DNA of 64,000 bases from Leisingera daeponensis DSM 23529 (GTDB lineage: Bacteria; Pseudomonadota; Alphaproteobacteria; Rhodobacterales; Rhodobacteraceae): NCBI RefSeq assembly GCF_000473145.1, contig NZ_KI421500.1, positions 3,541,225 to 3,605,224 on the forward strand. Direction: 5' to 3'. Made by a program: the position numbers and the translations under genes. The notes below the pieces were generated by a model. It saw only the letters and a program-made list of their open reading frames with translations. It did no database searches and was not told where the DNA came from. Shown here in pieces: positions 40,714 through 56,187 of this stretch. The number at the start of each line of letters is the position of its first letter. Positions within the stretch are counted from its first letter, which is position 1.

Positions 40714-42912
40714 CTACGAAAACTTCTTCTGCGATTTCCCCCTGTACGCCCGCGTCCCGGCTTTGCCCGCCGTTGACCGCCCCCGCGACTTGACGGCGGC
40801 CTCGGACGCCGCCTCCACCGCCGATTGCCGCGCCAGCGGGTCGTCGGAGATGGCGAGGTCCACTGCCTCCAGCCGCTTGATCTCGTCGCGCAGGCGGGCG
40901 GCTTCCTCGAACTCCAGGTTCTCCGCCGCCTTGCGCATATCGTCGCGCAGGCCGTTCAGATGCGCCTCCAGGTTGGCGCCGTGCATCGGCTTCCCGATCT
41001 GGGCGGTGACGCGGTTCATGTCGACGTCGCCCTCGTAGAGACCGGCCAGAACGTCCTCGACATTTTTCTTGACGGTCTCCGGCGTGATGCCGTGTTCGAG
41101 GTTGTAGGCGATCTGCTTTTCGCGGCGGCGGTTGGTTTCATCCAGGGCGCGCTCCATCGAGCCGGTGATCTTGTCGGCATACATGATGACGCGGCCGTCG
41201 GCGTTGCGGGCGGCGCGGCCGATGGTCTGGATGAGGGAGGTCTCGGAGCGCAGGAAGCCCTCCTTGTCCGCGTCCAGAATGGCGACCAGGCCGCATTCGG
41301 GAATATCCAGCCCCTCGCGCAGGAGGTTGATGCCAATGAGCACGTCAAACGCGCCGAGGCGCAGGTCGCGCAGGATCTCGATCCGTTCCAGCGTGTCGAT
41401 GTCGGAGTGCATGTAGCGGACCTTGATGCCCTGTTCGTGCAGGTATTCGGTCAGGTCCTCGGCCATGCGTTTGGTGAGCGTGGTGACAAGGGTGCGGAAG
41501 CCGTCGGCGGTGACCTTGCGCACCTCGTCCAGCAGGTCGTCCACCTGCATCGAGACGGGGCGGATTTCGACCTCCGGGTCCAGGAGGCCGGTGGGGCGGA
41601 TCACCTGTTCGGTGAAGACGCCGCCCGCCTGTTCCAGCTCCCACGCGGCCGGGGTGGCGGAGACGAAGACGGATTGCGGGCGCATGGCGTCCCATTCCTC
41701 GAACTTCAGCGGGCGGTTGTCCATGCACGACGGCAGGCGGAAGCCGTGTTCGGCCAGGGTGAACTTGCGCCGGTGGTCGCCGCGGTACATGCCGCCGATC
41801 TGCGGGACGGAAACGTGGGATTCATCGGCAAAGACGATGGCGTTGTCGGGGATGAATTCAAACAGGGTCGGGGGCGGCTCACCCGGGGCGCGGCCCGTGA
41901 GGTAGCGGGAGTAGTTTTCGATGCCGTTGCAGTGGCCGGTGGCCTCCAGCATTTCGATGTCGAAGTTGGTGCGCTGTTCCAGCCGCTGGGCCTCCAGCAG
42001 CTTGCCTTCGCCCACCAGCTGGTCGAGGCGCATCTTCAGCTCCTGCTTGATCGAGATCACAGCCTGGTTCAGCGTCGGCTTCGGGGTCACATAGTGGGAG
42101 TTCGCATAGACGCGGATCTGGTCGAAGCTGCCGGTTTTTTCGCCGGTCAGCGGGTCGAATTCGGTGATCTGCTCCAGCTCCTCGCCGAAGAAGGAGAGCT
42201 TCCAGGCGCGGTCCTCGAGGTGGGCGGGGAAGATTTCCAGCGTGTCGCCGCGGACCCGGAAGGAGCCGCGCTGGAAGGCCTGGTCATTGCGTTTGTACTG
42301 CTGGGCAACCAGGTCGGCCATGATCTGGCGCTGGTCGTACATCTCGCCCGCTTTCAGGTCCTGGGTCATGGCGGAGTAGGTTTCGACCGAGCCGATGCCG
42401 TAGATGCAGCTGACCGAGGCGATGATGATGACGTCATCGCGTTCGAGCAGGGAGCGGGTGGCGGAGTGGCGCATCCGGTCGATCTGCTCGTTGATCTGGC
42501 TTTCCTTCTCGATGTACGTGTCGGAGCGCGGCACATAGGCCTCCGGCTGGTAGTAGTCGTAGAAGGAGACGAAGTATTCGACCGAGTTCTCCGGGAAGAA
42601 GCCCTTGAATTCGCCGTACAATTGCGCCGCCAGTGTCTTGTTGGGGGCGAGGATGATGGCGGGGCGCTGGGTCTCCTCGATCACCTTGGCCATGGTGAAG
42701 GTCTTGCCGGTGCCGGTGGCGCCCAACAGCACCTGATTGCGTTCGCCCTCCATGACGCCCTGCGACAGTTCCTTGATCGCGGCCGGCTGGTCGCCTGCCG
42801 GATCGAAGGTGGTGTTCATGACAAAGCGCCTGCCGCCCTCCAGCTTGGGCCGCTGCTGCGGTGCCCGCTGGGTCATCATCGGCATGGACTTGTCGGAATG
42901 GGCATAGGGCAT
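40714..42912 (-). CDS. uvrB: Excinuclease ABC subunit B (732 aa)
   Basis: Damage-verifying helicase-like subunit of nucleotide excision repair. Walker A is [20 protein letters not shown]; the beta-hairpin region [20 protein letters not shown], the [13 protein letters not shown]alker B/DExx region and helicase motifs [16 protein letters not shown] and [10 protein letters not shown] are intact. A C-terminal UVR motif ([20 protein letters not shown]) that binds UvrC is present. GGAG lies 7 bases upstream of ATG 42912. Confidence 0.97.
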
Positions 42913-43118
42913 CGGGCGACTCCGTTGGGGACCGCGCTGATTTTGGTCTGTTTTTGTTCTTGTTCAAGGGGGCATCGGGGCCTGGTGCGGCCAAACGCCT
43001 GTGGCAGCAGGGCAAAACCGTTGAAATACGCTGCATTTGCTCCCTTGCTGCAGCCGCATATCCGGCGCATAAATGCGCAACTTCGAGATTCACAGGTTGA
43101 GACACCAGGAGACAGCCC

Positions 43119-43430
43119 ATGCAAGCGCGGATTTACCGGCCAGCACGCAATGCCATGACCTCGGGCATGGCGAAGACGCGGAGATGGGTCCTGGAATTTG
43201 CGCCGGCCAGCGCCCGCGAAGTGGATCCGCTGATGGGCTGGACTTCCTCCAGCGATACCCAGAGCCAGGTCAAACTGCGTTTTGACAGCAAGGAAGCGGC
43301 GCTGGAATATGCCAAGGACCATGGCATCGAGGCGCTGGTCGTCGAGCCCAAGCAGCGCAAGGCCAACATCCGCCCGGGCGGTTACGGCGACAATTTCGCC
43401 ACCAACCGCCGCGGGCCCTGGACCCACTGA
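43119..43430 (+). CDS. NADH dehydrogenase accessory subunit, NDUFS4/ETC complex I conserved-region protein (103 aa)
   Basis: Homologue of the mitochondrial 18-kDa subunit, found mainly in alphaproteobacteria. Conserved blocks are [60 protein letters not shown] and [13 protein letters not shown]. It stabilises the N-module of complex I at the cytoplasmic face of the inner membrane. AGGAG lies before ATG 43119. It is encoded alone, away from the nuo operon. Confidence 0.93.
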
Positions 43431-43532
43431 GGCCTGCGCCGCAACCTAAGCGGCTGCCGGACTGCGGAACCGGGCTGCGCTGGTTTCCGGGACTGAGGGT
43501 CTTGTTTCTTCGGGGCAGGGGGGATGCGCGCG

Positions 43533-44174
43533 ATGTCTGAACCCAGGTTTTTGCTGAACGGCGATGTGCCGGGCCGCGCGACGCTGCTGCTCGCCCACGG
43601 GGCCGGGGCGGCGATGGACACGCCCTTCATGAACGCGATGGCAGAGGGGCTTGCCGCCCGCGGGCTGCGGGCTGCCCGGTTTGAATTTGCCTATATGGCA
43701 GGCCGGCGCAGCGGCGGGCCGAAGCGGCCGCCGCCGAAGATCGAGCTGCTGCAGGAGGAATTCCGCACTGCCGTCGAAGCGCTTGCGTGCAGCGGCCCGC
43801 TGTTCATCGGCGGCAAGTCCATGGGCGGCCGGGTTGCAAGCCTGATTGCAGATGATCTTTGGGCGCAGGAGCGGATCCGCGGCCTGGTCTGCCTTGGTTA
43901 CCCGTTCCACCCGCCGAACAAACCCGAACAGCTGAGGACCGCGCATCTGGCCGGGCTGAAAACCCCGGCGCTGATCTGCCAGGGCACCCGCGACCCGTTC
44001 GGCACCCAGGCAGAGGCCGCGTCTTATGCCTTGTCCGAAGCGGTCACGTTCTGCTGGCTGAGCGACGGCGACCATGATCTGAAGCCGCGCAAAAGGGTGA
44101 GCGGGCTGACGCAGGAGCAGCACCTGGAGGCTGCGGCCGAGGAAATCGCCCGCTGGGTCAAGGCGGCGGTTTGA
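43533..44174 (+). CDS. Alpha/beta-hydrolase of the KANL3/Tex30-like type (213 aa)
   Basis: Signatures are LLLAHGAGAAMDTPFMNAMA (HGAG oxyanion loop) and a nucleophile elbow in LFIGGKSMGGRVASLI (G-K-S-M-G-G). The C-terminal catalytic histidine is in WLSDGDHDLKPRKR and the aspartate in CQGTRDPFGT. A complete Ser-Asp-His triad is therefore visible. Substrate unknown, cytoplasmic. ATG 43533 is preferred over 43524, which abuts the G-rich ribosome site. Confidence 0.85.
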   Translation: MSEPRFLLNGDVPGRATLLLAHGAGAAMDTPFMNAMAEGLAARGLRAARFEFAYMAGRRSGGPKRPPPKIELLQEEFRTAVEALACSGPLFIGGKSMGGRVASLIADDLWAQERIRGLVCLGYPFHPPNKPEQLRTAHLAGLKTPALICQGTRDPFGTQAEAASYALSEAVTFCWLSDGDHDLKPRKRVSGLTQEQHLEAAAEEIARWVKAAV

Positions 44175-44623
44175 GCGGCTGCCCTTTGCCCGCGGGCGCG
44201 CTGTCATGGCGGTTTGAACAAGGCGGCCTGCTGTCTGCGCCTCGCTGCAACCCCGGCCTGCCGCCAGCCGCGCAACCCAAGCGGATGATCGGGCTGGCCG
44301 CTTCACAGCGCCGGCGTTTCCCAGTGAAATTGCGGTTGAACTGGAGCCGGAGGCAGGGCGGATCCCCGGCCTGATGGCGGGCGGGTCCGGCGTGGTGATG
44401 CAGGACATGGAGATCAGCCTGCGGGACCGGGCCTGGGGCCTTTTGTGGGTTTGATGCGCAGGTTTTACGGACCGCTGCGGCCCTGCGCAGCAGTCCGGTT
44501 TCCGAGCGGGTGGGCGTCCGGGAAATTTTCTTTCCCTGATGGTAAACCCCGGATAGGGTTCGGGTCAGGCTGGCGCGCTGCGCCGGCGGCTTGCGACAAT
44601 CCAGGTCAGGAAGTTGAGGCGAA
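44175..44623. other. Intergenic region with no recognisable gene
   Basis: 449 bases between the hydrolase and an acetyltransferase. Frames on both strands are open by GC bias only; none has a start with a ribosome site and a recognisable domain. It may hold decayed coding sequence and must contain the acetyltransferase promoter. Confidence 0.4.
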
Positions 44624-45148
44624 ATGGCTGAACCGCAGCACCATATCAGCCCGGAAGGCGCCAGCGTTCCGGTGTCCGCTATCGAAATCAGCCCGGCCAG
44701 CCCGGCAGAGCCGGAGGCCGCCGCGATGATCCGGCGGCATCTGTCGCAAATGGCGGCGCAGTCGCCGGAGGAAAGCTGCCATGCGCTTGACGGCAGCGGG
44801 CTGGAAGAGCCCGGGGTGCAGTTCTTTCTGGCGCGCAGGGACGGCCGGGCTGTTGCGATGGGGGCGCTGAAATCCCTGGGCGGCGGCGCGCGGGAGCTGA
44901 AGTCGATGCACACGCTGTCAGAGGCCCGCGGCAGCGGGGCAGGGCGGGCGATGCTGGATTACCTGCTGACGCTGGCCCGCCGCGAAAACGCCACTGGCAT
45001 TTATCTGGAAACCGGCTCCACGGACGATTACCTGCCGTCGCGCCGCCTGTATGAATCCTTTGGCTTTGTGCAGTGCGGGCCGTTTGCGGACTATGGCGAA
45101 GACCCTTGGTCGGTCTTTATGCACCTGGACCTGCGCGGTGCGGCTTGA
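44624..45148 (+). CDS. GNAT-family N-acetyltransferase (174 aa)
   Basis: Core motif A for acetyl-CoA binding reads LKSMHTLSEARGSGAGRAML, followed by NATGIYLETGSTDDYLPSRR and LYESFGFVQCGPFADY, which is the GNAT C-terminal pattern. Similar proteins acetylate amino acids, amines or peptides. An acidic N-terminal extension of about 40 residues precedes the core. GAGG lies before ATG 44624. It is directly upstream of the tRNA gene. Confidence 0.85.
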   Translation: MAEPQHHISPEGASVPVSAIEISPASPAEPEAAAMIRRHLSQMAAQSPEESCHALDGSGLEEPGVQFFLARRDGRAVAMGALKSLGGGARELKSMHTLSEARGSGAGRAMLDYLLTLARRENATGIYLETGSTDDYLPSRRLYESFGFVQCGPFADYGEDPWSVFMHLDLRGAA

Positions 45149-45183
45149 CCCCCGGCACGAGCCTGTCATAACTGGCGCCACGC

Positions 45184-45260
45184 GGTCCCTTAGCTCAACT
45201 GGATAGAGCAGCTGACTTCTAATCAGCAGGTTGAGGGTTCGAGTCCTTCAGGGATCGCCA
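45184..45260 (+). tRNA. tRNA-Arg (anticodon TCT)
   Basis: Cloverleaf of 77 bases. Acceptor GGTCCCT pairs with AGGGATC (one G-T), followed by discriminator G and an encoded CCA. D arm GCTCAACTGGATAGAGC, anticodon stem CTGA/TCAG with loop CTTCTAA, and T arm with GGTTCGAGTCC are all present. It reads AGA codons, which are rare in this GC-rich genome. It flanks the accessory region to its right. Confidence 0.95.
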
Positions 45261-45564
45261 TTTTCACAGTTTGCTGCCAATGAGGCAGAACCTAGCACGC
45301 TTTGGGGGCGATGCAGACCCTATGCCAAGCGGAACTTGCCTGGCGAGGCTGAGCGCCTGCGGCTTGGCGCAAAGCAGGGCAATGCAGCGCGAAGACAATT
45401 CTTGAAATGGAAGTCCGGCTGGTCCTGATGGGCCAAGGCGCCGGCCGCGCCTGAGATGGCCGGATTTTGCGCCGCCCTGTGGCCGGAAAATCGTAGCGCC
45501 GTTGTCAGCCGCGACCGCAAAACGGTCTGCAGGTCTGCTCAACAGCGGCCGTTGAAAGGGGGCG
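45261..45564. other. Non-coding stretch between tRNA-Arg and the accessory genes
   Basis: No ORF here has a recognisable domain. It could hold degraded integration remnants, as expected beside a tRNA, but I could not identify an integrase or a repeated tRNA 3' end. Confidence 0.4.
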
Positions 45565-46035
45565 TCAGACGTCCGCCTCGCCGTCGCGCCGCGCAGTGGA
45601 CCGCGGATCGCGCCACGTCGTCAGGATCGAATTTGTGTACATTGTTTGAACCAACGGGTGCCTCGCAACGCTGTTGCGCACGTTCTCAACAGCTTCCACA
45701 TCCTTGGCTTCCACGAGCACCATCATGTCGATATCGGAGGATGAGATGCTCCACGCGCCCAGGATCTCGTCGTGCTTCTGCAAGTCGGCAAACAGCTGCC
45801 TGCAGTTCGGCGCGACCAGGCGGATATTGAAGACCGCTCTGAAAGGTTGCGAGGTGAATTCCGCGTCCTCCGCAAGCTCAATCGTGAACCGTTTGATGAT
45901 CTTCTTGTCGACCAGGCGGTCGATCGTCTCTTTGACCTTCTTGCGCGACGCGCCGAGTTCCAAGGCAATGTCAGAGACTGAGGCCCGGCTGTTTTCGCTC
46001 AGAAGGCGAATAATTTTTCTCTGAAATCCATCCAT
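45565..46035 (-). CDS. Lrp/AsnC-family transcriptional regulator (156 aa)
   Basis: The N-terminal helix-turn-helix (MDGFQRKIIRLLSENSRASV, SDIALELGASRKKVKETIDR) is followed by an RAM-like effector domain (RAVFNIRLVAPNCRQLFADL, ILGAWSISSSDIDMMVLVEA). Lrp-type proteins sense amino acids and form octamers on DNA. It is divergent from the YqcI/YcgG-cupin-permease operon; the 171-bp gap between them has two inverted repeats, so it probably controls that operon by sensing its amino-acid substrate or product. Confidence 0.88.
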   Translation of the reverse strand: MDGFQRKIIRLLSENSRASVSDIALELGASRKKVKETIDRLVDKKIIKRFTIELAEDAEFTSQPFRAVFNIRLVAPNCRQLFADLQKHDEILGAWSISSSDIDMMVLVEAKDVEAVENVRNSVARHPLVQTMYTNSILTTWRDPRSTARRDGEADV

Positions 46036-46041
46036 GTGTCA

Positions 46042-46115
46042 CACAGTTATTACGAAATTGACTGTGCCTGAGCCCAAACTGAAACGTCTTTTCCCAATAT
46101 GCATCTATCTGGGAA
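46042..46115. promoter_or_regulatory. Two inverted repeats in the Lrp/YqcI divergent promoter
   Basis: CACAGT (46042-46047) is inverted at 46061-46066 (ACTGTG), and TTCCCA (46091-46096) at 46110-46115 (TGGGAA). Their spacing on an AT-richer stretch resembles multiple Lrp sites. A -35-like TTGACT lies at 46058-46063, without a good -10. Confidence 0.45.
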
Positions 46116-46206
46116 CAGTCTGGGCGTTCATATCACAGGCAGGCCTCGAACTACCAGAGATTACCCGCCCTGGGTGAAGCCCAAGCAAAGATATGAGAGA
46201 CAGTCT

Positions 46207-46953
46207 ATGACCACCAAGATTATTTACAGTCGGGTTGAAATTGACAGCGCATTCGATGCAACTACCTGGCAGAAAAAGATTTTCAATGAGCTGGCGACCA
46301 ATTTCAGGTCTCGCTCCCGGCTCTTCCCCTGCACCTTTGGCGTGGCCGGTTTCGAAGCGGATCAGCTGCGGTTTGCCTTCTCTGAAAACATGGACCCTGG
46401 CGAAGTGTCTTCGGCGCTGAAGTGCTATCTGAAAGACGCCAAATCGTTCGGAAAGAATACCTCCCTTCTCGTTCTGTCGCGTCCGGGTCCGATCCAGAGC
46501 CTGGAGCATTACCGCGCGCGCTTCTGGTCAACCCTGGATGGTATCCATCAGACCGATGACGCAGAGTGGCCCGAGACCATTCCGGCGCAGATCGACAGCG
46601 CGGGGTGGGAATGGTGTTTTGGCGGCGAACAGATATTCGTGGTCTGCAACACGCCCGCGCATGTCAACCGCCAGTCACGGCGCTTTTCGAGTTTCATGCT
46701 GACGTTCCAGCCGCGGTGGGTGTTCAACGGAATTCTCGACACACGAGAGACCGCCGAGAAAGCCACCTCCAAAATCCGTTCCCGCATCCTGCAATACGAC
46801 CTGATCAATCCGTCGGAGGATCTGGGCTTGTACGGCGACCCGGACAACCGCGAGTTCGCGCAGTATTTTCTGGATGACGAAAACCGCGCGGCCACCTGCC
46901 CGTTTCACAGCTTTACCAAGAAAAACCAAAATGAAGAGGAGAAGGTGGCATGA
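46207..46953 (+). CDS. YqcI/YcgG-family protein, putative haem-dependent N-oxygenase (248 aa)
   Basis: Family hallmarks are all visible: FPCTFGVAGFEADQLRFAF (about residues 40-58), SLEHYRARFWSTLDGIHQTD, WCFGGEQIFVVCNTPAHVNR, SFMLTFQPRWVFNGILD and a C-terminal CPFHSF (231-236). The family was long uncharacterised; from memory, relatives such as DcsA of D-cycloserine synthesis are haem proteins that hydroxylate the guanidine nitrogen of arginine. Application here is inference. It is the first gene of a tight operon; its stop overlaps the cupin start by 4 bases. ATG 46207 was chosen over an upstream ATG at 46099 that would add 36 non-conserved residues. Confidence 0.8.
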   Translation: MTTKIIYSRVEIDSAFDATTWQKKIFNELATNFRSRSRLFPCTFGVAGFEADQLRFAFSENMDPGEVSSALKCYLKDAKSFGKNTSLLVLSRPGPIQSLEHYRARFWSTLDGIHQTDDAEWPETIPAQIDSAGWEWCFGGEQIFVVCNTPAHVNRQSRRFSSFMLTFQPRWVFNGILDTRETAEKATSKIRSRILQYDLINPSEDLGLYGDPDNREFAQYFLDDENRAATCPFHSFTKKNQNEEEKVA

Positions 46954-47285
46954 TTTCATCACCTGGAAAATCTGTCGTCGTTCATTCAGCCGCTGCTGAT
47001 CTGTCGGATTTCAGGGGGCTTGTTGAACGCTGCATGCCGGAACAGGGTTGCGTAGAAGTCCAGAACGACCAGTCCGGCAAGGAGCATCCCTGGCACCAGC
47101 ACGATACCGATGAGACCATTGTCGTGCTGGGCGGGCAGCTCCTGTTTTATTGGGAAGGCGGCGAAGCCGTCTGCAAATCGGGGGATGTGATCGAGCTTCC
47201 GAAAGGGGTCAGGCACGGTTCGAAAGCAAGTTTCGGGGACGTGCAGTACCTGATTTCCTTTGCCAATGTGGATTTCGCGAGATGA
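46950..47285 (+). CDS. Single-domain metal-binding cupin (111 aa)
   Basis: Both cupin motifs are complete: motif 1 H49-Q-H51-x3-E55-x6-G and motif 2 G-x5-P-x-G-x2-H89, giving the His/His/Glu/His set for an iron or manganese centre. No other domain is attached. It is coupled to the YqcI/YcgG gene upstream and to the permease downstream through ATGA overlaps at both ends, so the three proteins are probably made in fixed ratio. An oxidative or isomerising step on the product of the first enzyme is the natural guess; a sensory role is an alternative. Confidence 0.85.
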   Translation: MISSPGKSVVVHSAAADLSDFRGLVERCMPEQGCVEVQNDQSGKEHPWHQHDTDETIVVLGGQLLFYWEGGEAVCKSGDVIELPKGVRHGSKASFGDVQYLISFANVDFAR

Positions 47286-48556
47286 CGGATCTTAAAAAGA
47301 CGCTGGGCCCGCTGAAAGGGGCGGGCCTGATGCTGAATATTGTCATCGGTGCAGGGCTTCTGAGTTTGCCGGGGCTTGCCTACCAGCAGGCCGCAGAGAA
47401 CGCGATCTGGGTTTGGGCCTTGTGCGCTGTTGTGGCCCTGCCGCTTCTGTCTGTCTTCATCATCATGGGGGCAAGATTCCCGGATGCCGGAGGGGTGTCT
47501 TCCTTCGCGCAGAAGGCGTTCGGCAAATATGCCTACATAGCCAGCTCCTTTATCTTCCTTGGCGCGGTTGCTTTCGGCCTGCCCGCTATCGCACTCACCG
47601 GCGGCCATTATCTGTCCGTTCTGGTTCCGGTGGATCCTGCAATTCTGGCCATAGCCTTGCTGCTGATCGCGACCGGAACGCAACTCGCCTCACCTGAGGC
47701 GGCGTCAAGGATTTCGGCCATGGTTGCCTCGGTAATCCTGTTCTCGCTCCTGGTGATTGTTGCGGTTGGCCTGTCGGGCATTACACCTGAAATGCGTGAA
47801 GCCCGCGCCTTGAGTGGTCCAACCATCGGATTTTCGCAGCTGAGCGTCCCGTTCATGATGATCTTCTTCGCCTTCACGGGCTGGGAAGTCTCCGCAGGGA
47901 CGTCCGAGGAGTTCAGAAACCCCAAGAGAGACTTCCCGCTGGCGATGGGCCTGTCGTTCCTTGCCGCGATGATGCTCTACTTCAGCATGGCCGTGATCGT
48001 GCATTTCACGCCGATTGAGAGCAATTACGAGGCGGCGTTTTCGTCTATCATGCAGCACCACCTTGGCGTCTGGGGCGGCATTTTGATGTCAGTTCTGGCC
48101 GTTGTCATAATCGTGGCAAACCTGATGGGGGCGATCTGGGCCGTTTCGCGGATGCTGTTGTCGCTTTCCAGGGAAAATGTCGTGCCGCTGGATCTTTCCG
48201 CAGACGAAACCGGTCGTCCGCTGAAGGCCGTGTTTGTGGTCGTGGCGGTTCTGCTGGCCGTGCTCAGCCTGGATCTTTTCAACATCCTGGCGATTGAGGA
48301 TATGCTGTCCTTGGCCGGGCAGAATTTCATCATCCTCTTCGCGGTCGCGGCTGCCAGCTTGATGACGCTGACGTCAAGCCTGTTCGAAAAACTGGTGGCG
48401 TTGGTCGCGGTGGGGGCTGTCGCTGTGCTGCTGGCACAGCAGGACGCAGCCCTGTTGTACCCGGTGCTATTGTCCGTTGCCGCAGCGGTTCTTTGGGCAG
48501 TCCAGAACAGGGTGAACAAGACGAACATTCGAAACAGCCCGCGCAGCACGGGCTGA
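47282..48556 (+). CDS. APC-superfamily amino-acid permease (424 aa)
   Basis: About twelve membrane helices. The N-terminal GPLKGAGLMLNIVIGAGLLS with the GxGx(L/I)SLPG unwound-helix motif, and FAFTGWEVSAGTSEEFRNPK near residue 200, are typical of APC transporters and resemble the YjeH exporter branch. The cupin stop overlaps its start (ATGA). With the Lrp regulator upstream, it could either import the amino-acid precursor or export the product of the operon. A strong terminator follows. Confidence 0.85.
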   Translation: MTDLKKTLGPLKGAGLMLNIVIGAGLLSLPGLAYQQAAENAIWVWALCAVVALPLLSVFIIMGARFPDAGGVSSFAQKAFGKYAYIASSFIFLGAVAFGLPAIALTGGHYLSVLVPVDPAILAIALLLIATGTQLASPEAASRISAMVASVILFSLLVIVAVGLSGITPEMREARALSGPTIGFSQLSVPFMMIFFAFTGWEVSAGTSEEFRNPKRDFPLAMGLSFLAAMMLYFSMAVIVHFTPIESNYEAAFSSIMQHHLGVWGGILMSVLAVVIIVANLMGAIWAVSRMLLSLSRENVVPLDLSADETGRPLKAVFVVVAVLLAVLSLDLFNILAIEDMLSLAGQNFIILFAVAAASLMTLTSSLFEKLVALVAVGAVAVLLAQQDAALLYPVLLSVAAAVLWAVQNRVNKTNIRNSPRSTG

Positions 48557-48605
48557 AGGACAACCCTCGACGTCTTCCTGAGGTGGCGTTCTCCGTCACC
48601 AACTG

Positions 48606-48634
48606 GACCCGGCAGGTAATGCCGGGTCTTTTTT
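48606..48634 (+). terminator. Terminator of the YqcI/cupin/permease operon
   Basis: GACCCGGCA pairs with TGCCGGGTC around GGTAA and is followed by six T residues. Confidence 0.9.
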
Positions 48635-48788
48635 CTGTCCCGTGTTCTGGGTGCGTAAATGGACGGCTGCGCCTGTTGCTCCGCCTGCGGCCGGCTTCAG
48701 AACAAAGGGGGGAGAGCTTGCCCCTGGTGTTTCCATCAGCGGGCCTTGTGGCGCGGGGCGGCTTTACCGTGGCATGGGCCAAACGGAT

Positions 48789-48816
48789 GCTATCCCCGCC
48801 TTTCAGCAGGGATAGC
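48789..48816 (-). terminator. Hairpin at the 3' end of the indigoidine operon
   Basis: GCTATCCC (48789-48796) with GGGATAGC (48809-48816). It lies 35 bases after the MFS gene stop on the minus strand; only three Ts follow. The rest of 48557-48850 holds no gene. Confidence 0.5.
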
Positions 48817-48850
48817 GCGGCAGGACAGAACCTGCTTGGGGGAACGGGTG

Positions 48851-50089
48851 TCAGCTGGCCGCGCGCAGTCCGCGGTCCAGGGACACGCTGCGCAGCATGG
48901 TGGAGAAGCGTTTGTAGCTTTCAGGAGAGTAGCGAACAGCAAGGAAGATCATCAGAAGCGAGCCTGCCGCCATCCCCAGCCAGACGTTGCTGAGGTCCGA
49001 CATCGCATCCCGGATAGCGCCGGCAAACAGGGGCACGAAACTTGCCAGGATATAGCCGCCGCCCTGCACAAAAGAGGTGAAGTTGCCTGCGGTGGTGGGA
49101 TCATCAACGTGGTCGATGGCCACGATGATCGACAGCGGGAACAGGATGCCGATGCCGACACCCAGCAGCGCCATTGCCAGGAACGACATGTCAATCGGAG
49201 CGGTGTAGAGCACGCCAAACCCCAGGGCTGTCATGATCAGTGCAAAGACCAGCGGGCCGCGGCGGTCCGGGAAATGGTGGATGAAGGCTGCCACGCCCAA
49301 GGCTGTGACGGCTTCAATCACCGTCAATGCGGACAACAGCAGGCCCGCAGCCCCTTGATCAAGACCCTGCTCCAGATAGAACGGCGGAATCCAGGCCATG
49401 ACGAGCATGAACGCCCCGGTGCCGACGCCGAAAAACAGCATCAGCGACCAGCAGCGTGCATTGCGCCAGAACTGCGGAGGGGTGGTGCCCGCCGCGGGGG
49501 CAGGCGCGGTGCGCTCGCTGTCGGCGTTGCGCGCGGCGATGACCCAGATCAGCACTGCGAGGACCGCAGGAAGGCTCCAGGCCGCCAGCGTGCCTTCCCA
49601 GTCCAGCGAAGAGGCAAGCCCCGCAGCCGTGCCCGCCGCGATGGAGGCACCGGCCACGATCCCGGTGGAGTAGAGGCCGATCACCCGGCCGGTTGCCGCG
49701 CCGAAGTTGCGCTTGGCGAAGCCCGGCATCAGCGATTGCACAATGGCAATGCCGATCCCGGCCCCGGCGGCGGTGACAAGAAGGCCGGCACCTGTCGGCA
49801 GCCACAGGCGGGCAGCGCAGGCGAGGGCGATGATCAGCGCGCCCAGCGTGATGCCGCCGCGCTCCCCCAATGCCGCGCGCAGCTGGCGCACGTAGATGGC
49901 GCCAATGCCCATCAGAAACACCGGGATCATGGTCAGGAAGCCGATGATGGTGGAGTTGACACCGGTATCGCCCAGGATTTGCGACACCAGCGGGCCGATG
50001 GCGGCAACTGCAGGGCGCAGGTTCAGGGAGATCAGGAATATTGCGAACAGCAGTAACGCTGGTGACGCCTTGGCAATGCGTGTGGTCAT
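48851..50089 (-). CDS. MFS transporter, CynX/NimT-like, indigoidine cluster (412 aa)
   Basis: Twelve predicted membrane helices with the first helix ALLLFAIFLISLNLRPAVAA, typical of the CynX/NimT branch. As the last gene of the igi-type operon it probably exports the pigment or a precursor, or imports glutamine-related substrate; position corresponds to igiE in the published igiBCDFE order as I recall it. ATG 50089 (MTTRIAK) was chosen over TTG 50104, which has no ribosome site. Confidence 0.82.
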   Translation of the reverse strand: MTTRIAKASPALLLFAIFLISLNLRPAVAAIGPLVSQILGDTGVNSTIIGFLTMIPVFLMGIGAIYVRQLRAALGERGGITLGALIIALACAARLWLPTGAGLLVTAAGAGIGIAIVQSLMPGFAKRNFGAATGRVIGLYSTGIVAGASIAAGTAAGLASSLDWEGTLAAWSLPAVLAVLIWVIAARNADSERTAPAPAAGTTPPQFWRNARCWSLMLFFGVGTGAFMLVMAWIPPFYLEQGLDQGAAGLLLSALTVIEAVTALGVAAFIHHFPDRRGPLVFALIMTALGFGVLYTAPIDMSFLAMALLGVGIGILFPLSIIVAIDHVDDPTTAGNFTSFVQGGGYILASFVPLFAGAIRDAMSDLSNVWLGMAAGSLLMIFLAVRYSPESYKRFSTMLRSVSLDRGLRAAS

Positions 50090-50121
50090 GGGATGCCCTT
50101 TCAAGAGGAGGTATGCGGGGG

Positions 50122-50355
50122 TTAAGCCGCCGAATAATCCGGTGATTTGATCAATTCTTGCGGATGGGTTTGGATGTCTGGAACAAAGACGCTGCTGTGC
50201 CAGTCATCGGGCGCCACAGGGCGCAATGCGATGGATACCGCGTGCGGGGAGCAGCCAAAGGCCTGAGTGACCGACTGGGTGATGGCTTCGCAGAGGGTTG
50301 CCTGCTGTTCCGCCGTCAGGGTGGCGGCAAAATGCTTGATGATGACGTGGGGCAT
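50122..50355 (-). CDS. 4-oxalocrotonate tautomerase-family protein (77 aa)
   Basis: Starts MPHVIIKHF; after Met removal Pro1 is the catalytic base of the tautomerase superfamily. The small size, the LTAEQQATLCEAITQSV helix and the C-terminal strand fit the family. It follows the NRPS gene after 4 bases, with AAGAGG inside the NRPS 3' end as ribosome site, so it is translationally coupled. It may assist keto-enol steps in indigoidine formation. Position corresponds to igiF by gene order (recall). Confidence 0.85.
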   Translation of the reverse strand: MPHVIIKHFAATLTAEQQATLCEAITQSVTQAFGCSPHAVSIALRPVAPDDWHSSVFVPDIQTHPQELIKSPDYSAA

Positions 50356-50359
50356 GGGA

Positions 50360-53300
50360 TCAGGCCTCTTGCAGGTTGCGGGTTTCAGGCCGGGCCGGCT
50401 GCCATGCCGGAACGTGGCGGCGGATTGCGGCGGCAAGCTCGGACACGCCGCCGGGTTTGAGCAGCTCATAGTGGTCGGCAGCCAGCGCGTGGACCGGTGC
50501 CGGAGCGGCGAGAGTGCGTGTGGCCTCCTCCAGGAAGGAGAGATTGTCGCCCGCCGCCTTGAACAGGCGCACCGGCGCGGCCACCTGGCGCTGTTCGATC
50601 TGCAGCCCGTATTCGGGCGCATAGGTCTGTGTCACCAGCCGGGTGATGCGCAAGATCGTGCCCGGGTCGAGATCGGGTTTTTCGGCTGCGATATACGCCA
50701 CGAAGCCGTCCAGGTCCGAGACCGTCTCAATCACCGGGGACACCCGCTCCGGTGCGATGGTCTGGGAAAACACCGAATAGAGGATGGTCAGAAAGGACGC
50801 GTCTCGGAACAGCGCAGCCTCCTCCGCGCGTACCGGATCGCCGCCGGGCAGCTCCGGAGAGCCTGGCGCGATCAGGGTCAGCTCCGCCACCTCGCAGCCT
50901 GCCTGCTCCAGCTGATAGGCGGTCTCATAGGCCACCCGTGCGCCGAAGGAATATCCCCAAAGCGTGTAGGGGCCTTCCGGATGCGCCTCCCGGATCAGCT
51001 CGGCATCGCGCGCTGCCATGTCCTGGATCGAGCCGCAGACCTGCTCGCCGGGGTTCACTCCGGAGGCCTGCACGCCGATCACGGGACGGGGCGTGCCGAG
51101 CGCCTGCGCGAGGTGGCGCAGGTTCATCGGATACCCGCCAAGGCCGGGCCAGCAGAACACCGGGCTGCCGGTGCCTTTCTTCAGCGGCACTGCGCGCGAC
51201 AGGCCGGAGCCGGCGCCGCCCTCCGTCAAGCGGCGGGCCAGCGCTTCGATTGTCGTGTCCTCGAACAGCACCTGCACCGGCAGGCTGGTATCAAAGGCGC
51301 GGTTGATGCCCTGCACCAGTTTGACGGCCTTCAGAGAGTCGCCGCCGATTTCAAAGAAATCATCCTGTACCGAGACGTCCTCAAGCCCTATTTGCGCGCA
51401 CCAGATCTCTGCCAGAGCGGTTTCCGTTTCGTTGCGGGGTTTGATGATCTCACGCTCGGCTGCGGCATCGTCGAATTCGGGGAACGCTTTGAGGGCATTC
51501 ACATCCACTTTGCCCGACGCGCTGCAGGGGATCGACGGCACCAGCGCCAGTTTGCTGGGCACCATGTAATCGGGCAGCAGTGACTGCAGATCGCGGCGGA
51601 TCAGTTCAGCCGGTCCTTCCATATGCACGCTGTCCTCATGCATGCCTTCATGCGCAATCTGCTCGGCGCTGACCTTGCCGAATACCGCGCTGTAGCAGGC
51701 GCCGCAGGCAAACCCGTGCTCGTTCAGGATCTCCTTGAGGCGGGTGGCCGCGACGAGGTCGTTTCCGGACTTGGAACTGTAGCCAGAGGACATGGTGCCG
51801 ATCCGGCAGCTGTTCTGCTGCACCCGCTGCAGGCTGCGGCCCAGGTCGATATAGGCGTGCCAGCGCTCTGCGTCCCGGCTGACCATCGAGATCATGCCGC
51901 TGGCGCGCTGATAGACACGCTGGTTGATGGCGATCACGTGGCGCTGTTCCATGATGTGGCGCGAGAACGGCTGCAGCCCGCCATCGCGATAGGCATAATG
52001 CCCCGGCGCCAGCCCGGAGACTTTGCTGCCATGGGCCTGGACGTAGAAATCCACCGGCAATTCGGTCTGCCGGTCTGCATGGGCAGTGACCGCATAGCCG
52101 GCGATATAGACGTGGCCCGGGCCGCAGTGCAGATGGGGAAGCGCGTCCGGAGCATCCGTGCCCGCGCCGATACCCAGGCCATGGGACGGCAGGATATGAT
52201 CCATCAAGCCCAGGATATGGCCGGTCTCAAACTCCAGCACTTCACGGATGTTGTTCTTGTAGACCGGTTCGATGGCCGGAATCTTGCCCACGAAATGCAG
52301 CTGCATCACAGGTGCGGCCGAAGCTGGGCGCGGCGCGGTCTGAACCAGTTCGTGCCGGGCCGGGTGATAGTAGTAGTAGCCGGGTTCAAACCCTGCCACA
52401 TTGGCCAGCTCCACATAGACTTGCGTTGCATTGAGCGCGCCGGGCGAGGCATAGGCGTGTTTCGGCAGCAGCCGTTCCGCGCTGGTGAACTGGCCAAGCC
52501 AGCGGAGCAGATACCCCAGATCCTGCGCACTGAGCTGCTCAAGCCCACCGGTGCCGGAGGCAGGCTGCTCCGGTTGCGTCAGCACCGACAGGACATCCCC
52601 GGCCGTGACCTCTCCGCCTTCGTAGAAGCGGTAGGTCTTGCGGGCAAAGGCCAGCTGCCGCTGAGCAGCGCCGGCTTCTTTGCCTGCCAGGGCATAGGTC
52701 TTGCGCCCTTCGGTTTCGGCCGCACTGCGCAAACCTGCGCCAGAAAGCTGGGCCCGCACCTGCAGGCGGCTTTTCTTGCTGTGGTGGTGGGCGCCGGCGT
52801 TGCCCTGATCCATCAGTGGCGCTTCGCGCGGGTTCAGTTCAATGCCGGCAGCAAGCACCGGCTGGCCGGTGCGGGCATGAGGCTTGATGAACACGCCCGC
52901 TGCCTTGACCCAGTCGTGGTTCTCGATGGCCAGGCGGATTTCATCCAGTTCAATCCGGTAACCGCGGAATTTGACCTGGTTGTCGGCGCGGCCCTGGAAC
53001 TGCAGGCCGCCATCCGGATTGCGGCGCACCAGATCGCCGGTTTTGTAAAGCCGCAGCGGCATGCCGCCCGCCGGGCTGATCCAGGTGATGAAGCGCTCGG
53101 CCGTCAATTCGTCGCGGTTGTGGTAGCCATTGGCCAGCTGGCGGCCGCTGATATACAGCTCGCCCGAAACGCCATCGGCAACCGGCTGCAGGTTTTCATC
53201 CAGCACCCAGCAACTGGTGTTCGCGGCAGGCTGGCCGATCGGGATCATCTCCGGGCCGTTTTCCAGCCCTGCCGGATCCACGGTCTGGGCGGTGGCATTG

Positions 53301-54301
53301 ATCGTGCATTCGGTCGGGCCGTAGAGATTGACCAGCCGGCAACCGGGGCGGGCTTCAAAAATCCGGGTGGCGAGTTTTCGGGTCAAGGCCTCGCCGCCGC
53401 TGAACAGGCTGGTGAGGGTGGTGCAGTTTTCGAATGCCGGCAGGTCAACCAGCGCCTGCAGCAGAGTCGGCACCCCCTGCAGCATGGTGACCCCGTGCTG
53501 TTTGATCTGCTCGATCAGTGCTTCCGGATCACGGTAAACGCCGGGGCGGCCCATCACCACCCGAACGCCGCAGCAGACTGCCAGCAGCTCCCATTGCGCG
53601 GCGTCAAAGCTGACCGGGGTCTTTTGCAGGATGACTTCGCCGACCCGCAGCTTCTGCTCGGTTTGCAGCCAGGTCAGCTGGTTCAGAATTGCAGCGTGGG
53701 AAATGCCGACGCCCTTGGGGGCACCGGTGGTGCCGGAGGTGTAGATCATATAGGCCAGATCGTCTTCCAGCAACGCGGGGCCGCACAGGCAGTCGCTGTC
53801 TTCTCCGCTGGGGACTGCATCCAGGGCATCAAGAGTGATCACGGTGACCCCAGGCAGGATCATTTCGGCCAAGCGGCCGCGCAGCTTGTCCTGGGTGACG
53901 ATCACATCGACGCCAGCGTCGCGGATCATATAGGTGAGCCGGTCCACCGGGTAATCGGTGCCCAGCGGCAAATAGGCGCCGCCGGAGAACAGAATTCCCC
54001 AGAGGCCGGCCATCATTTCGGCGGAGGAGTCCGCAAACAGACCTACCCTGCTTCCCGCGCCGACGCCTGCACGTTTCAGGCGGGCGGCCAGGCGGGCGGC
54101 GTATTCGGCCAGATCGCTGTAGCGCAGCGCGCTGGTATCGTCGCAGACCGCAATTTCTTCGCTGCGGCAGCGCACCTGCAGCATCAGCATATCAACCAGC
54201 GAGGTGCGTTCCGACGCGGCGCGCAGCAACGCGCGGGTGATATCTGTCTGCTGGGGGCGGGCGGCAACGGGGGTGGAGAGGAGCGAGTCAGGAGTGCTCA
54301 T
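50360..54301 (-). CDS. igiD: Indigoidine synthetase, NRPS A-Ox-T-TE (1313 aa)
   Basis: Makes the blue bipyridyl pigment indigoidine from two L-glutamines. The adenylation domain spans about 40-500 and resumes after an inserted oxidase domain (about 550-870, flavin type); the A10 lysine is Lys931 in SASGKVDVNAL. Lining up with GrsA by eye gives the specificity residues D-A-W-Q-F-G-L-I-N-K, the code I remember for glutamine in indigoidine synthetases. The carrier domain has DDFFEIGGDSLK (Ser989) and the thioesterase has WGYSFGARVAYE (Ser1118) with a late ADHYELL histidine. All domains look intact. Confidence 0.93.
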   Translation of the reverse strand: MSTPDSLLSTPVAARPQQTDITRALLRAASERTSLVDMLMLQVRCRSEEIAVCDDTSALRYSDLAEYAARLAARLKRAGVGAGSRVGLFADSSAEMMAGLWGILFSGGAYLPLGTDYPVDRLTYMIRDAGVDVIVTQDKLRGRLAEMILPGVTVITLDALDAVPSGEDSDCLCGPALLEDDLAYMIYTSGTTGAPKGVGISHAAILNQLTWLQTEQKLRVGEVILQKTPVSFDAAQWELLAVCCGVRVVMGRPGVYRDPEALIEQIKQHGVTMLQGVPTLLQALVDLPAFENCTTLTSLFSGGEALTRKLATRIFEARPGCRLVNLYGPTECTINATAQTVDPAGLENGPEMIPIGQPAANTSCWVLDENLQPVADGVSGELYISGRQLANGYHNRDELTAERFITWISPAGGMPLRLYKTGDLVRRNPDGGLQFQGRADNQVKFRGYRIELDEIRLAIENHDWVKAAGVFIKPHARTGQPVLAAGIELNPREAPLMDQGNAGAHHHSKKSRLQVRAQLSGAGLRSAAETEGRKTYALAGKEAGAAQRQLAFARKTYRFYEGGEVTAGDVLSVLTQPEQPASGTGGLEQLSAQDLGYLLRWLGQFTSAERLLPKHAYASPGALNATQVYVELANVAGFEPGYYYYHPARHELVQTAPRPASAAPVMQLHFVGKIPAIEPVYKNNIREVLEFETGHILGLMDHILPSHGLGIGAGTDAPDALPHLHCGPGHVYIAGYAVTAHADRQTELPVDFYVQAHGSKVSGLAPGHYAYRDGGLQPFSRHIMEQRHVIAINQRVYQRASGMISMVSRDAERWHAYIDLGRSLQRVQQNSCRIGTMSSGYSSKSGNDLVAATRLKEILNEHGFACGACYSAVFGKVSAEQIAHEGMHEDSVHMEGPAELIRRDLQSLLPDYMVPSKLALVPSIPCSASGKVDVNALKAFPEFDDAAAEREIIKPRNETETALAEIWCAQIGLEDVSVQDDFFEIGGDSLKAVKLVQGINRAFDTSLPVQVLFEDTTIEALARRLTEGGAGSGLSRAVPLKKGTGSPVFCWPGLGGYPMNLRHLAQALGTPRPVIGVQASGVNPGEQVCGSIQDMAARDAELIREAHPEGPYTLWGYSFGARVAYETAYQLEQAGCEVAELTLIAPGSPELPGGDPVRAEEAALFRDASFLTILYSVFSQTIAPERVSPVIETVSDLDGFVAYIAAEKPDLDPGTILRITRLVTQTYAPEYGLQIEQRQVAAPVRLFKAAGDNLSFLEEATRTLAAPAPVHALAADHYELLKPGGVSELAAAIRRHVPAWQPARPETRNLQEA

Positions 54302-54315
54302 GATATGTCCTGTCA

Positions 54316-54330
54316 GGTAATGGAATGGTC
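54316..54330 (-). promoter_or_regulatory. igi-type operator half-site before igiD
   Basis: Reads GGTAATGGAATGGTC on the plus strand, close to the igiD start. It shares GGTxATGGAAT with the operator at 56188-56215. Confidence 0.5.
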
Positions 54331-54386
54331 GTTACAAAACTGGCTGCTGCTCACCGCCGAAAATGCTGGCAGTGAGCATGTCGCTG

Positions 54387-54406
54387 TGCAGCGGGCACGC
54401 CCGCTG
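54387..54406 (-). terminator. Hairpin between the racemase-like gene and igiD
   Basis: GCAGCGGGC and its complement form a 9-bp stem with a 2-base loop 10 bases after the upstream stop. Without a T-run it may act as a partial terminator or an mRNA stabiliser that sets the ratio of upstream to igiD product. Confidence 0.5.
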
Positions 54407-54415
54407 CGGGTTGGG

Positions 54416-55165
54416 TCAGTGGTTTTCGTAAAGAAGGCCGCGGCCGGGGATCGGATCGGTCACTCCGCAGCTGCGCAAGGCGTGCCAGTAAAGAACCGCA
54501 TTATTCGACAGCACCGGCTTTCCGATCCAGGTTTCAGCGGCGGCGGCAAAATCAGCCATGGGAACATTGGTGCCCACTTGGACAATGGCGTCCACATTCG
54601 GCCCGTCAACGTCCAGCACCGCATCACGCAGGTTTTCCAGGGTAACGTCGGAGATGTTAGACGGCGTCCGCCCGCCAAGCCCGTGCGTGGCTGCAACCTC
54701 TATCCCGCTGTCGGTGAAGAACCGCGAAACCGGCTCATCGCCCAGTTCCAGATAGGGCGAAATGAGGCCAATTCGCCTGATGCCGCCAAGTGCCTTCAGC
54801 GCAGCCAGGATGGCATCAGCGCTCAAAATGATCTTTGCACCCCCTGCTGCTTCCGCAAGACGGCCATGCAGAGCCTCATGCGCAGAGTGGCCCTCCCAAT
54901 AGCCATCAGGCGACACCGCGGCAATGACCGCCCCAACGCCGCAATGGCGCAGGCTGCGGATGGCGTCCGGCGTGGAACTGCGGATGTTTTCAATGACCCG
55001 GTTGAAGCCCGCCTCATGGGTCAGAGAGTCATCGTCGATGATCATCCTGCCGATGTGGTTTGTAACGCCAACGGGGCGCATGGCCTCCATCTCCGGCTGA
55101 GCGGACGTGTTGGTCGATGGAATGGCGACACCGACGCGCAGCCGTTTTCCCAGAAAGTTGCTCAT
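54416..55165 (-). CDS. Asp/Glu racemase/maleate isomerase-like protein, indigoidine cluster (249 aa)
   Basis: The fold is suggested by VGVAIPSTNTSAQPEMEAM at the N-terminus, GVGAVIAAVSPDGYWEGHSA, RRIGLISPYLELGDEPVSRF and VDAIVQVGTNVPMADF, the order seen in maleate isomerases and arylmalonate decarboxylases. At the two catalytic cysteine positions I read serine (AVSPDG) and glycine (VGTNVP), so classical cysteine chemistry seems lost. It corresponds to igiC by position. A half-operator precedes its start. Confidence 0.75.
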   Translation of the reverse strand: MSNFLGKRLRVGVAIPSTNTSAQPEMEAMRPVGVTNHIGRMIIDDDSLTHEAGFNRVIENIRSSTPDAIRSLRHCGVGAVIAAVSPDGYWEGHSAHEALHGRLAEAAGGAKIILSADAILAALKALGGIRRIGLISPYLELGDEPVSRFFTDSGIEVAATHGLGGRTPSNISDVTLENLRDAVLDVDGPNVDAIVQVGTNVPMADFAAAAETWIGKPVLSNNAVLYWHALRSCGVTDPIPGRGLLYENH

Positions 55166-55176
55166 GAATTTTTCCC

Positions 55177-55190
55177 GTAAATAGAATGGT
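55177..55190 (-). promoter_or_regulatory. igi-type operator half-site before the racemase-like gene
   Basis: GTAAATAGAATGGT on the plus strand; related to the sites before igiD and the dehydrogenase gene. Confidence 0.45.
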
Positions 55191-55215
55191 TTTTGTCTAT
55201 GTTTGGGGCGCGGCT

Positions 55216-56115
55216 CTACTGCGAGGCGAGGTAGGTGGCAGCCATATCTGCGCTGCCATGGCCTTGGGCCTGCGCCCGCCTGTACCGGGTCAGGCCCGCC
55301 TCGGCCAAGTCCGCCCTCACACCGGCCTCCAGCGCGGCGCCGACTATCAGGGCACTGTCCTTGACGGCATTGTCGATGGTGAAAGCCGGAGTGAAATTTC
55401 CCGATGCCATGGCCTGGGCTTTCATCTGAAAGAAGGGCGTATCCAGCGGCCCGCCGCGCAGAGTGTCCGCCACCAGTTGCGGGTCCAGCCCCAGGCCGCG
55501 GGCCAGCGCCAGGCTCTCTGCCGCTCCGTGGGTCAGAGCGAAGACCCAGCTGTTCAACGCCAGTTTCAGCCGCGTCGCCATACCGGGGGCGGTATCGAGC
55601 CAGCGGGTGGCTTTGCCGACCGCATCCAGCACCGGCTGGACGGCTTCCTTGGTGCTGTCCGGACCGGCCGCCAGCACAAGCAGCTGGCCCGCCTCTGCGG
55701 GTTGGCGGGTGCCAAGCACCGGCGCGTCGATCAAGGTGAGCCCCTTGCGGGCCGCCAGCGTTTCCAGCCCGGGCATGTCGGCCGGCCCGACTGTGCTCAT
55801 CTGCAGCCAGCAGACGGGCGTAGCGGGCACGCTGTCCGCGTCCGGCAGCGCCGACATCACGTCTGCGATGGCGCTGGCGTCTTTCAGCATGGTCACGATG
55901 ACATCGGCGTGGAGGGCTGCCCCGGCGGGATCCGCAGCCGGAGTGATATTCGGTGCCGCCAAAGAAAGCGCTTTGTCAGGGGTCCGGTTCCATACGCTGA
56001 CCTGGCAGCCGGCCGCCGCGATGTTGCGGGCCATCGGTGCGCCCATCAGCCCGGCTCCCAGAACGGCCACACGCAGGGCGGGGCAGGGCGGCGGCGAAAT
56101 CGCGTCGGTTGTCAT
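55216..56115 (-). CDS. NAD(P)-dependent 3-hydroxyisobutyrate dehydrogenase-family protein, indigoidine cluster (299 aa)
   Basis: Rossmann motif VAVLGAGLMGAPMARNIAAA near residue 16, the substrate loop STVGPADMPG and catalytic lysine region LKLALNSWVFALTHGAAESL (Lys in RLKLALN) are typical of beta-hydroxyacid dehydrogenases. First gene of the igi-type operon; corresponds to igiB by order. It may reduce or interconvert a precursor or shunt product; its role in pigment formation is not established by the sequence. Confidence 0.82.
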   Translation of the reverse strand: MTTDAISPPPCPALRVAVLGAGLMGAPMARNIAAAGCQVSVWNRTPDKALSLAAPNITPAADPAGAALHADVIVTMLKDASAIADVMSALPDADSVPATPVCWLQMSTVGPADMPGLETLAARKGLTLIDAPVLGTRQPAEAGQLLVLAAGPDSTKEAVQPVLDAVGKATRWLDTAPGMATRLKLALNSWVFALTHGAAESLALARGLGLDPQLVADTLRGGPLDTPFFQMKAQAMASGNFTPAFTIDNAVKDSALIVGAALEAGVRADLAEAGLTRYRRAQAQGHGSADMAATYLASQ

Positions 56116-56187
56116 GTCAAGCCTCTGGTTCTCGGGGGCAAGCGCCTGCTGAGGGGGGATCCCGCTTGGACGCCTGGTATCTGGGGG

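Follow-up and report, generated by a model that had tools for sequence, protein, structure and literature searches.

The window analyzed here is a stretch of 64,000 nucleotides from Leisingera daeponensis DSM 23529 (contig NZ_KI421500.1), and our subject is a three-gene operon within it that encodes a YqcI/YcgG-family protein, a small cupin and an amino-acid transporter of the APC superfamily, facing a gene for an Lrp-type regulator. Comparison with other genomes showed that the conserved unit is the YqcI-cupin pair and not the YqcI-cupin-APC triad. We propose, with a probability of roughly 0.55, that the pair is a two-enzyme and sometimes one-polypeptide unit for the N-hydroxylation of free arginine, followed by a cupin-dependent rearrangement or oxidation and by export of an amino-acid product.

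Conservation of the YqcI-cupin pair

A collection of genomes was scanned with an eight-row YqcI alignment and the best 80 of 270 relatives, selected by YqcI alone, were analyzed. The sequence-only reading of the window had taken YqcI, cupin and APC to belong together and had suggested a search for conserved triads. In 79 of the 80 loci YqcI is either followed directly by a cupin gene in the same orientation or fused to a cupin (88-155 bits with a 43-row cupin profile), and the window's cupin as the sole query already finds a cupin in 79 loci. The first part of the claim was thus upheld, while the APC gene was present in only 21 of the 80 loci, so the triad was rejected as the conserved unit and the APC setting is one of several. 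Single-frame YqcI-cupin fusions were seen in 11 loci (six Bacillaceae, three Paenibacillus, one betaproteobacterial metagenome-assembled genome (MAG) and one Acetobacteraceae). In the lone exception, L096 from Streptomyces, YqcI is fused to MbtH, the C-terminal cupin of a protein encoded upstream is of the SznF/ChmM type, and neither APC, MFS nor LysE was found by these queries. The paired YqcI proteins score at least 315 bits on the clade profile; distant YqcI proteins score at most 234, and the clade cupin was found downstream of them in none of 28 loci.

Any YqcI match was found in 17 of 398 Pseudomonadota genomes, the clade type solely in the genome of the window (353 bits, others at most 72), where the cupin scores 135 bits against at most 42 in all others. 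Among 18 chosen genomes, the same five have the clade YqcI, the cupin and the APC, and the other 13 have none of the three. The gene order is kept, for example, in Rhodobacteraceae SC52, Thioclava, a Paracoccaceae MAG, Acidiphilium and Tistrella, and since YqcI identity to these other genera is 46-55%, it reflects more than chance. It had been considered beforehand that the genes might occur solely in this lineage; the unit was instead found in other genera and in two phyla, spread over Alpha-, Beta- and Gammaproteobacteria and Bacillota. On a quick 70-row tree with several long branches, the fusion/split state changes at least twice and the transporter label at least five times.

All 79 paired loci carry a transporter gene with its midpoint at most 4.0 kb from that of YqcI: 21 APC, 49 MFS and 9 LysE. 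An Lrp-type gene accompanies 19 of the 21 APC genes, in 16 cases divergently, in two halomonads at the far end, and in L080 on the same strand with a weak 34-bit match. An AraC/DJ-1-type regulator with an MFS gene characterizes 44 of the 80 loci, nearly all from Bradyrhizobium, and an ATP-grasp ligase with an MFS gene five others; the nine LysE loci include three with an isochorismatase-type and six with a nitroreductase-type gene. That the carriers change while the two enzymes stay the same argues for selection on moving the product and not on a particular carrier. For the APC protein of the window, the transport of either substrate or product had been suggested. Its best curated match is the YjeH model PRK11021 of the amino-acid efflux branch of APC, at 145.8 bits and thus below the NCBIfam equivalog cut-off of 284. 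As YjeH is an exporter (PMC8140960), export of the product is likelier than uptake of the substrate, to judge by this match; in the remaining paired loci, transport would be left to MFS or LysE carriers, in some cases beside ATP-grasp ligases.

Some further genes recur beside the pair. A third conserved gene is present in all 44 AraC/DJ-1 loci; in the one tested (L030) it had no Pfam match, and it appears GNAT-like by eye. The protein it encodes in these Bradyrhizobium-type clusters has 245-250 amino acids (L030 4952-5707, L035 4943-5677) and is a candidate acyltransferase acting on the product. A pyridoxal-kinase-type gene adjoins the unit in Thioclava (L012 8526-9377, L013 8593-9438, L105 8526-9377) and, at another position, in Tistrella (L003-L005 about 2970-3695, L074 about 5346). 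Such neighbors would make sense if the product were to trap pyridoxal phosphate.

Predicted enzymes and proposed pathway

The YqcI protein is predicted, from its sequence and its modeled structure (predicted local distance difference test (pLDDT) 90.2), to be a heme-thiolate guanidine N-hydroxylase. Five PDB entries matched the fold at an E-value of at most 0.001, all of them AglA (TM 0.81-0.84), and AglA was found by sequence too (E 7.7e-25). In the heme enzyme AglA, the axial ligand is Cys44, and Phe152, Gln177, Arg179 and Phe182 hold and position the substrate; activity is abolished by changes at Cys44 or by replacement of Phe152 or Phe182 with Ala (PMC12866846). The counterparts of AglA Cys44, Phe152, Arg166, Gln177, Arg179 and Phe182 are C42, F144, R158, Q168, R170 and F173, all invariant in 40 aligned rows, and R191, the counterpart of Arg200, is nearly so. 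The axial Cys and the heme-carboxylate-binding Arg residues of AglA are therefore kept (C42, R158, R191). The kinship with heme guanidine N-hydroxylases, suspected from the sequence at the outset, is strengthened by this conserved heme Cys and guanidine-hydroxylase pocket. At the places of Q168 and R170, most far-group proteins (L006, L007, L107-L122) have Asn and His, and several intermediate plasmid proteins keep Gln and Arg.

The position of AglA Lys225 bears on the substrate. This Lys touches the phosphonate of the peptide-like substrate of AglA, and its change to Glu, which then anchors the amino group, permits hydroxylation of free arginine (PMC12866846). The corresponding residue here is Glu216, which supports, at the level of aligned residues, a free amino acid as the substrate without singling out the clade. 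Glu is found in most of the YqcI family, the Lys of AglA being the odd one, and Glu216 as a clade-specific mark of free arginine is weakened accordingly.

Other gene neighborhoods of YqcI proteins were noted in passing. Sulfotransferase, adenylyl-sulfate kinase and YqcI genes stand in a row on haloarchaeal plasmids (L098 2634-5744, L101 2647-5726), where the product may be sulfated and N-oxidized. On a further haloarchaeal plasmid, YqcI lies beside a "urea carboxylase-associated" protein (L102 4291-5732), and in L006 and L007 the next open reading frame appears, by eye, to belong to the same family. A Rhizobium etli plasmid (L104 5004-8135) has genes for a distant YqcI, an amino-acid permease and a radical SAM protein in a row and no cupin.

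The cupin (model pLDDT 92.6) is a separate protein of 111 amino acids with the full H-H-E-H site that had been read from the sequence (H49, H51, E55, H89). In a 43-row alignment in which L028 and L041 are not included, P30, G33, E36, Q38, D40, H49, H51, E55, G62, G78, L83, H89, S91, Y100 and I102 are invariant; H46 is counted among the conserved residues beside E36, Q38, D40, S91 and Y100. The three metal-binding His of SznF/ChmM-type cupins are thus present, and Y100 follows H89 by 11 residues, matching Tyr459 after His448 in SznF. In the latter enzyme, the N-N step requires H407, H409 and H448, with Tyr459 helping to transfer protons (PMC11705231). The next-best cupins of other genomes, from 29 loci, have Ser at position 91 in no case and Tyr at position 100 in four, ten of the 29 having no aligned residue at position 100. 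The cupins of SznF/ChmM type have no Glu ligand and are joined to an HDO domain, whereas E55 is invariant here and the cupin stands alone or, in the 11 fusion loci, is joined to YqcI. Arg takes the place of Glu55 in the two SznF-type proteins aligned (L008 and L096), and the SznF/ChmM-type cupins L008, L009 and L096 combine this Arg with a Ser two residues and a Tyr 11 residues after the last His; in SznF itself these two places are taken by Ala (His+2) and Tyr (His+11). The site is thus mixed in character, as aligned partly SznF-like and partly that of an ordinary 3His-1Glu cupin. Profile comparison of the clade cupin gave L096 at E 1.1e-5 (probability 81.5%) and L009 at E 4.9e-5 (67.8%).

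In the pathway that we propose, the YqcI heme-thiolate oxygenase would N-hydroxylate a free amino acid at its guanidine group, L-arginine being the likeliest substrate. The N-hydroxyguanidine would pass to the cupin, and the existence of YqcI-cupin fusions suggests that this transfer is direct. The metal-binding cupin would then rearrange or further oxidize it, and the resulting non-protein amino acid would be exported, in Leisingera by the YjeH-like APC carrier under the control of the Lrp-type sensor. The electron donor would be supplied from elsewhere in the genome; AglA likewise works with a separate reductase, of the PDR/VanB type (PMC12866846). The N-hydroxylation step has moderate support because of homology and the conserved residues. 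Gene order, the pairing and fusion of YqcI and cupin, the conserved residues, the fold match and the association with transporters are what the analysis showed. We infer heme binding, the substrate, the order of reactions, the nature of the product and the direction of transport, the cupin step being suggested by the pairing with YqcI and the partial resemblance to SznF, and export by the association with transporters and the YjeH-type match. Our leading guess for the product is a compound with an N-N bonded group such as a nitroso or diazeniumdiolate group. Rather more tentatively, the pair may constitute a route, free of nonribosomal peptide synthetases (NRPSs), that turns free arginine into an exported N-N bonded or N-oxidized amino acid, or into a small peptide via the ATP-grasp ligases, by a Glu-cupin chemistry unlike that of SznF and in Alpha-, Beta- and Gammaproteobacteria as well as Bacillota.

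Several observations weigh against the arginine pathway. The 80 loci are not independent, since 44 of them share one architecture and come nearly all from Bradyrhizobium. In the YqcI protein, the AglA heme-carboxylate contact Lys196 is not kept (Thr187), and Glu216, being common family-wide, singles out neither the clade nor arginine. In the wider alignment the L015 fragment is without Cys42, and L028 and L071 are without the counterpart of Arg191. Glu55 of the cupin departs from the three-His site of SznF, and SznF comes far down the sequence-profile list (E 0.11), so the cupin as closest to SznF by sequence is not supported; by fold SznF is tied with many cupins, and its high place in the VIA-align list carries no weight, as the rows are tied. 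The cupin of Phycocomes zhengii (L028 2257-2619) has two metal-ligand His changed, along with one Arg of its YqcI, and that of Bradyrhizobium viridifuturi (L041, about 7747-8058) is not alignable through H89 and Y100; both are probably decaying or altered copies. The operon contains no redox partner gene, and with the APC score below the YjeH cut-off the direction of transport is a guess. Finally, Tistrella mobilis has both the unit studied here (L074, on another replicon) and a plasmid-borne pair for graminine, and as the latter is encoded separately, graminine is unlikely to be the product of the unit in this species.

The alternative that survives best, although we consider it unlikely, is that the same pair acts on another amine or guanidino compound (homoarginine, enduracididine-like or agmatine-like), with the cupin as an ordinary dioxygenase or isomerase. 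The characterized YqcI members hydroxylate differing arginine derivatives at differing positions (PMC12866846), the GntA guanitoxin N-hydroxylase model NF041366 gave 47.8 bits against an equivalog cut-off of 145, and by sequence the cupin is nearer to ordinary 3His-1Glu cupins than to SznF. Against this, the protein retains the residues with which AglA binds the side chain of arginine, and the surroundings of the pair repeatedly include Lrp regulators, transporters of amino-acid type and ATP-grasp genes of amino-acid-ligase type. It is improbable that the operon serves self-protection, with Lrp sensing a toxic amino acid that the pair inactivates and the carrier pumps out: a transporter, a regulator and small modifying enzymes on plasmids, patchy in the genus (2 of 13 genomes), would suit such a role, but the ATP-grasp ligase and MFS genes of five loci look biosynthetic and N-hydroxylation usually activates rather than inactivates. 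N-hydroxyarginine is a known intermediate of nitric oxide (NO) synthase, the heme of which is thiolate-ligated. This ligation is common to AglA (PMC12866846), and YqcI could accordingly make N-hydroxyarginine for the cupin to split into an NO species and citrulline or cyano-ornithine, the carrier exporting the by-product; we rate this as more improbable still, as the ATP-grasp ligases in five loci suggest that an amino-acid product is the goal and the fold match between YqcI and NO synthase does not rise above noise (E 0.35, probability 0.10). That the cupin is not catalytic and serves the heme enzyme as chaperone, metal donor or regulator is the least probable reading, for while constant adjacency and fusion suit any obligate partner and L028 and L041 are without part of the metal site as aligned, H49, H51, E55, H89 and Y100 show no variation in the 43 rows that exclude these two.

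The unit is a very small genetic setting for a YqcI enzyme and a cupin, natural one-chain fusions included, for example in Leisingera and Paenibacillus. The second step, the action of a cupin on N-hydroxylated arginine, which has not been reconstituted for ChmM, would become directly testable, and the unit points to secreted amino acids of an unrecognized class in Bradyrhizobium, roseobacters and bacilli. The YqcI/YcgG family is reported to have more than 4,000 members (PMC10849742), of which only six bacterial ones are listed as characterized (PMC12866846).

Organization and genomic setting of the locus

The gene calls, the Pfam scores and both junctions agree with the arrangement first described from the sequence, an Lrp regulator facing three genes with ATGA overlaps (46950-46953 between YqcI and cupin, 47282-47285 between cupin and APC; Table 1). 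Both the helix-turn-helix (HTH) and the ligand-binding domain of the regulator pass their Pfam cut-offs, which places it in the Lrp/AsnC family. The YqcI gene most likely starts at 46207, as the Leisingera caerulea records begin at the counterpart of this position; an alternative in-frame ATG lies at 46099. The intergenic region is conserved in part with L. caerulea and Roseovarius albus, and no regulator binding site was identified within it. Six terminator-type sites were found in the window against 3.8 expected from shuffles, the one behind the operon having the longest stem. The G+C content in 1-kb segments is 53-60% for starts at 45.0-48.0 kb and 61-68% elsewhere between 40 and 60 kb, except for a second dip at 56-57.5 kb.

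Table 1. Position and annotation of the operon, its regulator and its flanking signals in the window.
Feature	Position	Strand	Annotation
Lrp/AsnC-family regulator	45565-46035	-	Divergent from the operon; Pfam HTH_AsnC-type 37.1 bits (cut-off 27) and AsnC_trans_reg 26.8 bits (cut-off 25)
Intergenic region	46036-46206		171 bases between the Lrp and YqcI start codons; presumed divergent promoters and regulator site
YqcI/YcgG-family protein, 248 aa	46207-46953	+	PF08892 214.2 bits (cut-off 27); predicted heme-thiolate guanidine N-hydroxylase
Stand-alone cupin, 111 aa	46950-47285	+	Cupin_2 37.9 bits (cut-off 27.2); metal site H49-H51-E55-H89
APC-superfamily amino-acid transporter, 424 aa	47282-48556	+	AA_permease_2 95.8 bits (cut-off 27); nearest curated family YjeH-type
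Terminator-like stem-loop and T-run	48605-48629	+	10-pair stem with 7 G-C; 3' of the operon; consensus match only

On one side the unit is flanked by a tRNA-Arg gene (45184-45260) and on the other, at 48851-56844 on the minus strand, by genes for a CynX-like MFS protein, a tautomerase, an NRPS, an arylmalonate decarboxylase, a hydroxyisobutyrate-dehydrogenase-like protein and a TetR regulator. These form a complete indigoidine-type operon, matching gene for gene in annotation the igiE-F-D-C-B-R content published for Leisingera (PMC5014874), with a synthetase of 1313 amino acids at 50360-54301. No graminine-type NRPS module was found beside the unit in the window, the NRPS there being the indigoidine type igiD. 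An adenylation-domain query matched only L017 (igiD) and L096 among the 80 loci, in flanks of at most 7 kb. With the neighbor an indigoidine operon and 78 of 80 loci negative within these flanks, a pathway shared with the neighboring NRPS was rejected.

In L. daeponensis the unit sits by the tRNA-Arg gene on a chromosome-sized contig (3.98 Mb). The part of the window from 45536 to 54730 matches two L. caerulea plasmids (L010, L016) at 92-93% identity, and the tRNA side had no match in the L. caerulea plasmid flank compared. A 94% match to Leisingera aquaemixtae covers 40956-53949 and takes in the full length of the L. aquaemixtae sequence compared. Because both plasmid matches and a copy on a chromosome-sized contig occur, the unit is an accessory cassette, and it seems to have moved between replicons. 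The YqcI gene is carried by two of 13 same-genus genomes. In an Acetobacter pasteurianus plasmid copy (L015 4144-6855), an IS1380-type element interrupts the YqcI gene and the cupin frame is open. A phage or defense role was rejected: neither YqcI nor the cupin had a PHROGs match, the viral_contigs scan gave no relative, and the only PADLOC matches were weak ones between the HTH of the Lrp protein and Cas regulators.

Comparison with known systems

AglA of argolaphos biosynthesis is the only solved relative found and shares the fold, the heme-ligand Cys and the arginine pocket. It differs in acting on aminomethylphosphonate-linked arginine and in having Lys225 in place of Glu216 (PMC12866846). 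The argolaphos genes listed (AlpA-AlpK) include an HppE-like iron enzyme for the phosphonate, and no small cupin is named among them as a partner of AglA. KinJ, which has a candidate His ligand and represents another N-N bond-forming heme family, was considered and rejected as a different protein, with no link to YqcI in the text covered (PMC12154649).

The parallel with SznF of streptozotocin biosynthesis that was drawn from the sequence holds for the succession of N-hydroxylation and a cupin, for the Tyr at His+11 and for a place, though tied, among the top cupin fold matches. It does not extend to the hydroxylating part, which in SznF is a diiron HDO domain and not a YqcI protein, nor to the cupin itself, which in SznF is of the three-His type with Ala and not Ser at His+2, within one large protein.

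The ChmN/ChmM and GrbE/GrbD systems likewise encode a YqcI/YcgG heme enzyme with a cupin-bearing protein. ChmN hydroxylates arginine once and twice, and the cupin-bearing partner is the proposed catalyst of N-N bond formation in graminine (PMC10849742, PMC10391617, PMC11705231). A YqcI oxygenase feeding an SznF-like cupin has thus been published for chalkophomycin (PMC10849742) and, by gene knockouts, for gramibactin (PMC10391617); the ChmM reaction itself is described as not reconstituted (PMC10849742). The Tistrella counterparts are MobE on the GrbD/ChmM side and, on the GrbE/ChmN side, the N-terminal part of MobF (PMC10391617), and on a Tistrella plasmid we found an SznF-like protein followed by a long YqcI-holding frame (L009 255-1271 and 1351-3606), the tistrellabactin graminine genes mobE and start of mobF. 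The cupin of ChmM and GrbD is the C-terminus of an SznF-like HDO protein serving NRPSs, and that of ChmM is described as being without metal ligands, whereas the cupin of the present unit is free (about 100-120 residues) or fused to YqcI, contains the Glu and lies beside transporters or ATP-grasp ligases.

A genome survey of 2010 had noted YqcI genes in oxygenase-cupin/NRPS operons and their conserved Cys (PMC2922099). The initial statement that no such system was described therefore has to give way as regards YqcI with an SznF-like cupin. For YqcI with a stand-alone cupin, no paper was found in the open-licence PMC literature, subscription papers being mostly outside this search. What appears to be new here is a cupin that contains Glu and is free-standing or fused to YqcI, the setting among transporters or ATP-grasp ligases, the surroundings without an NRPS adenylation domain (78 of 80 loci, in flanks of at most 7 kb) and the occurrence in two phyla.

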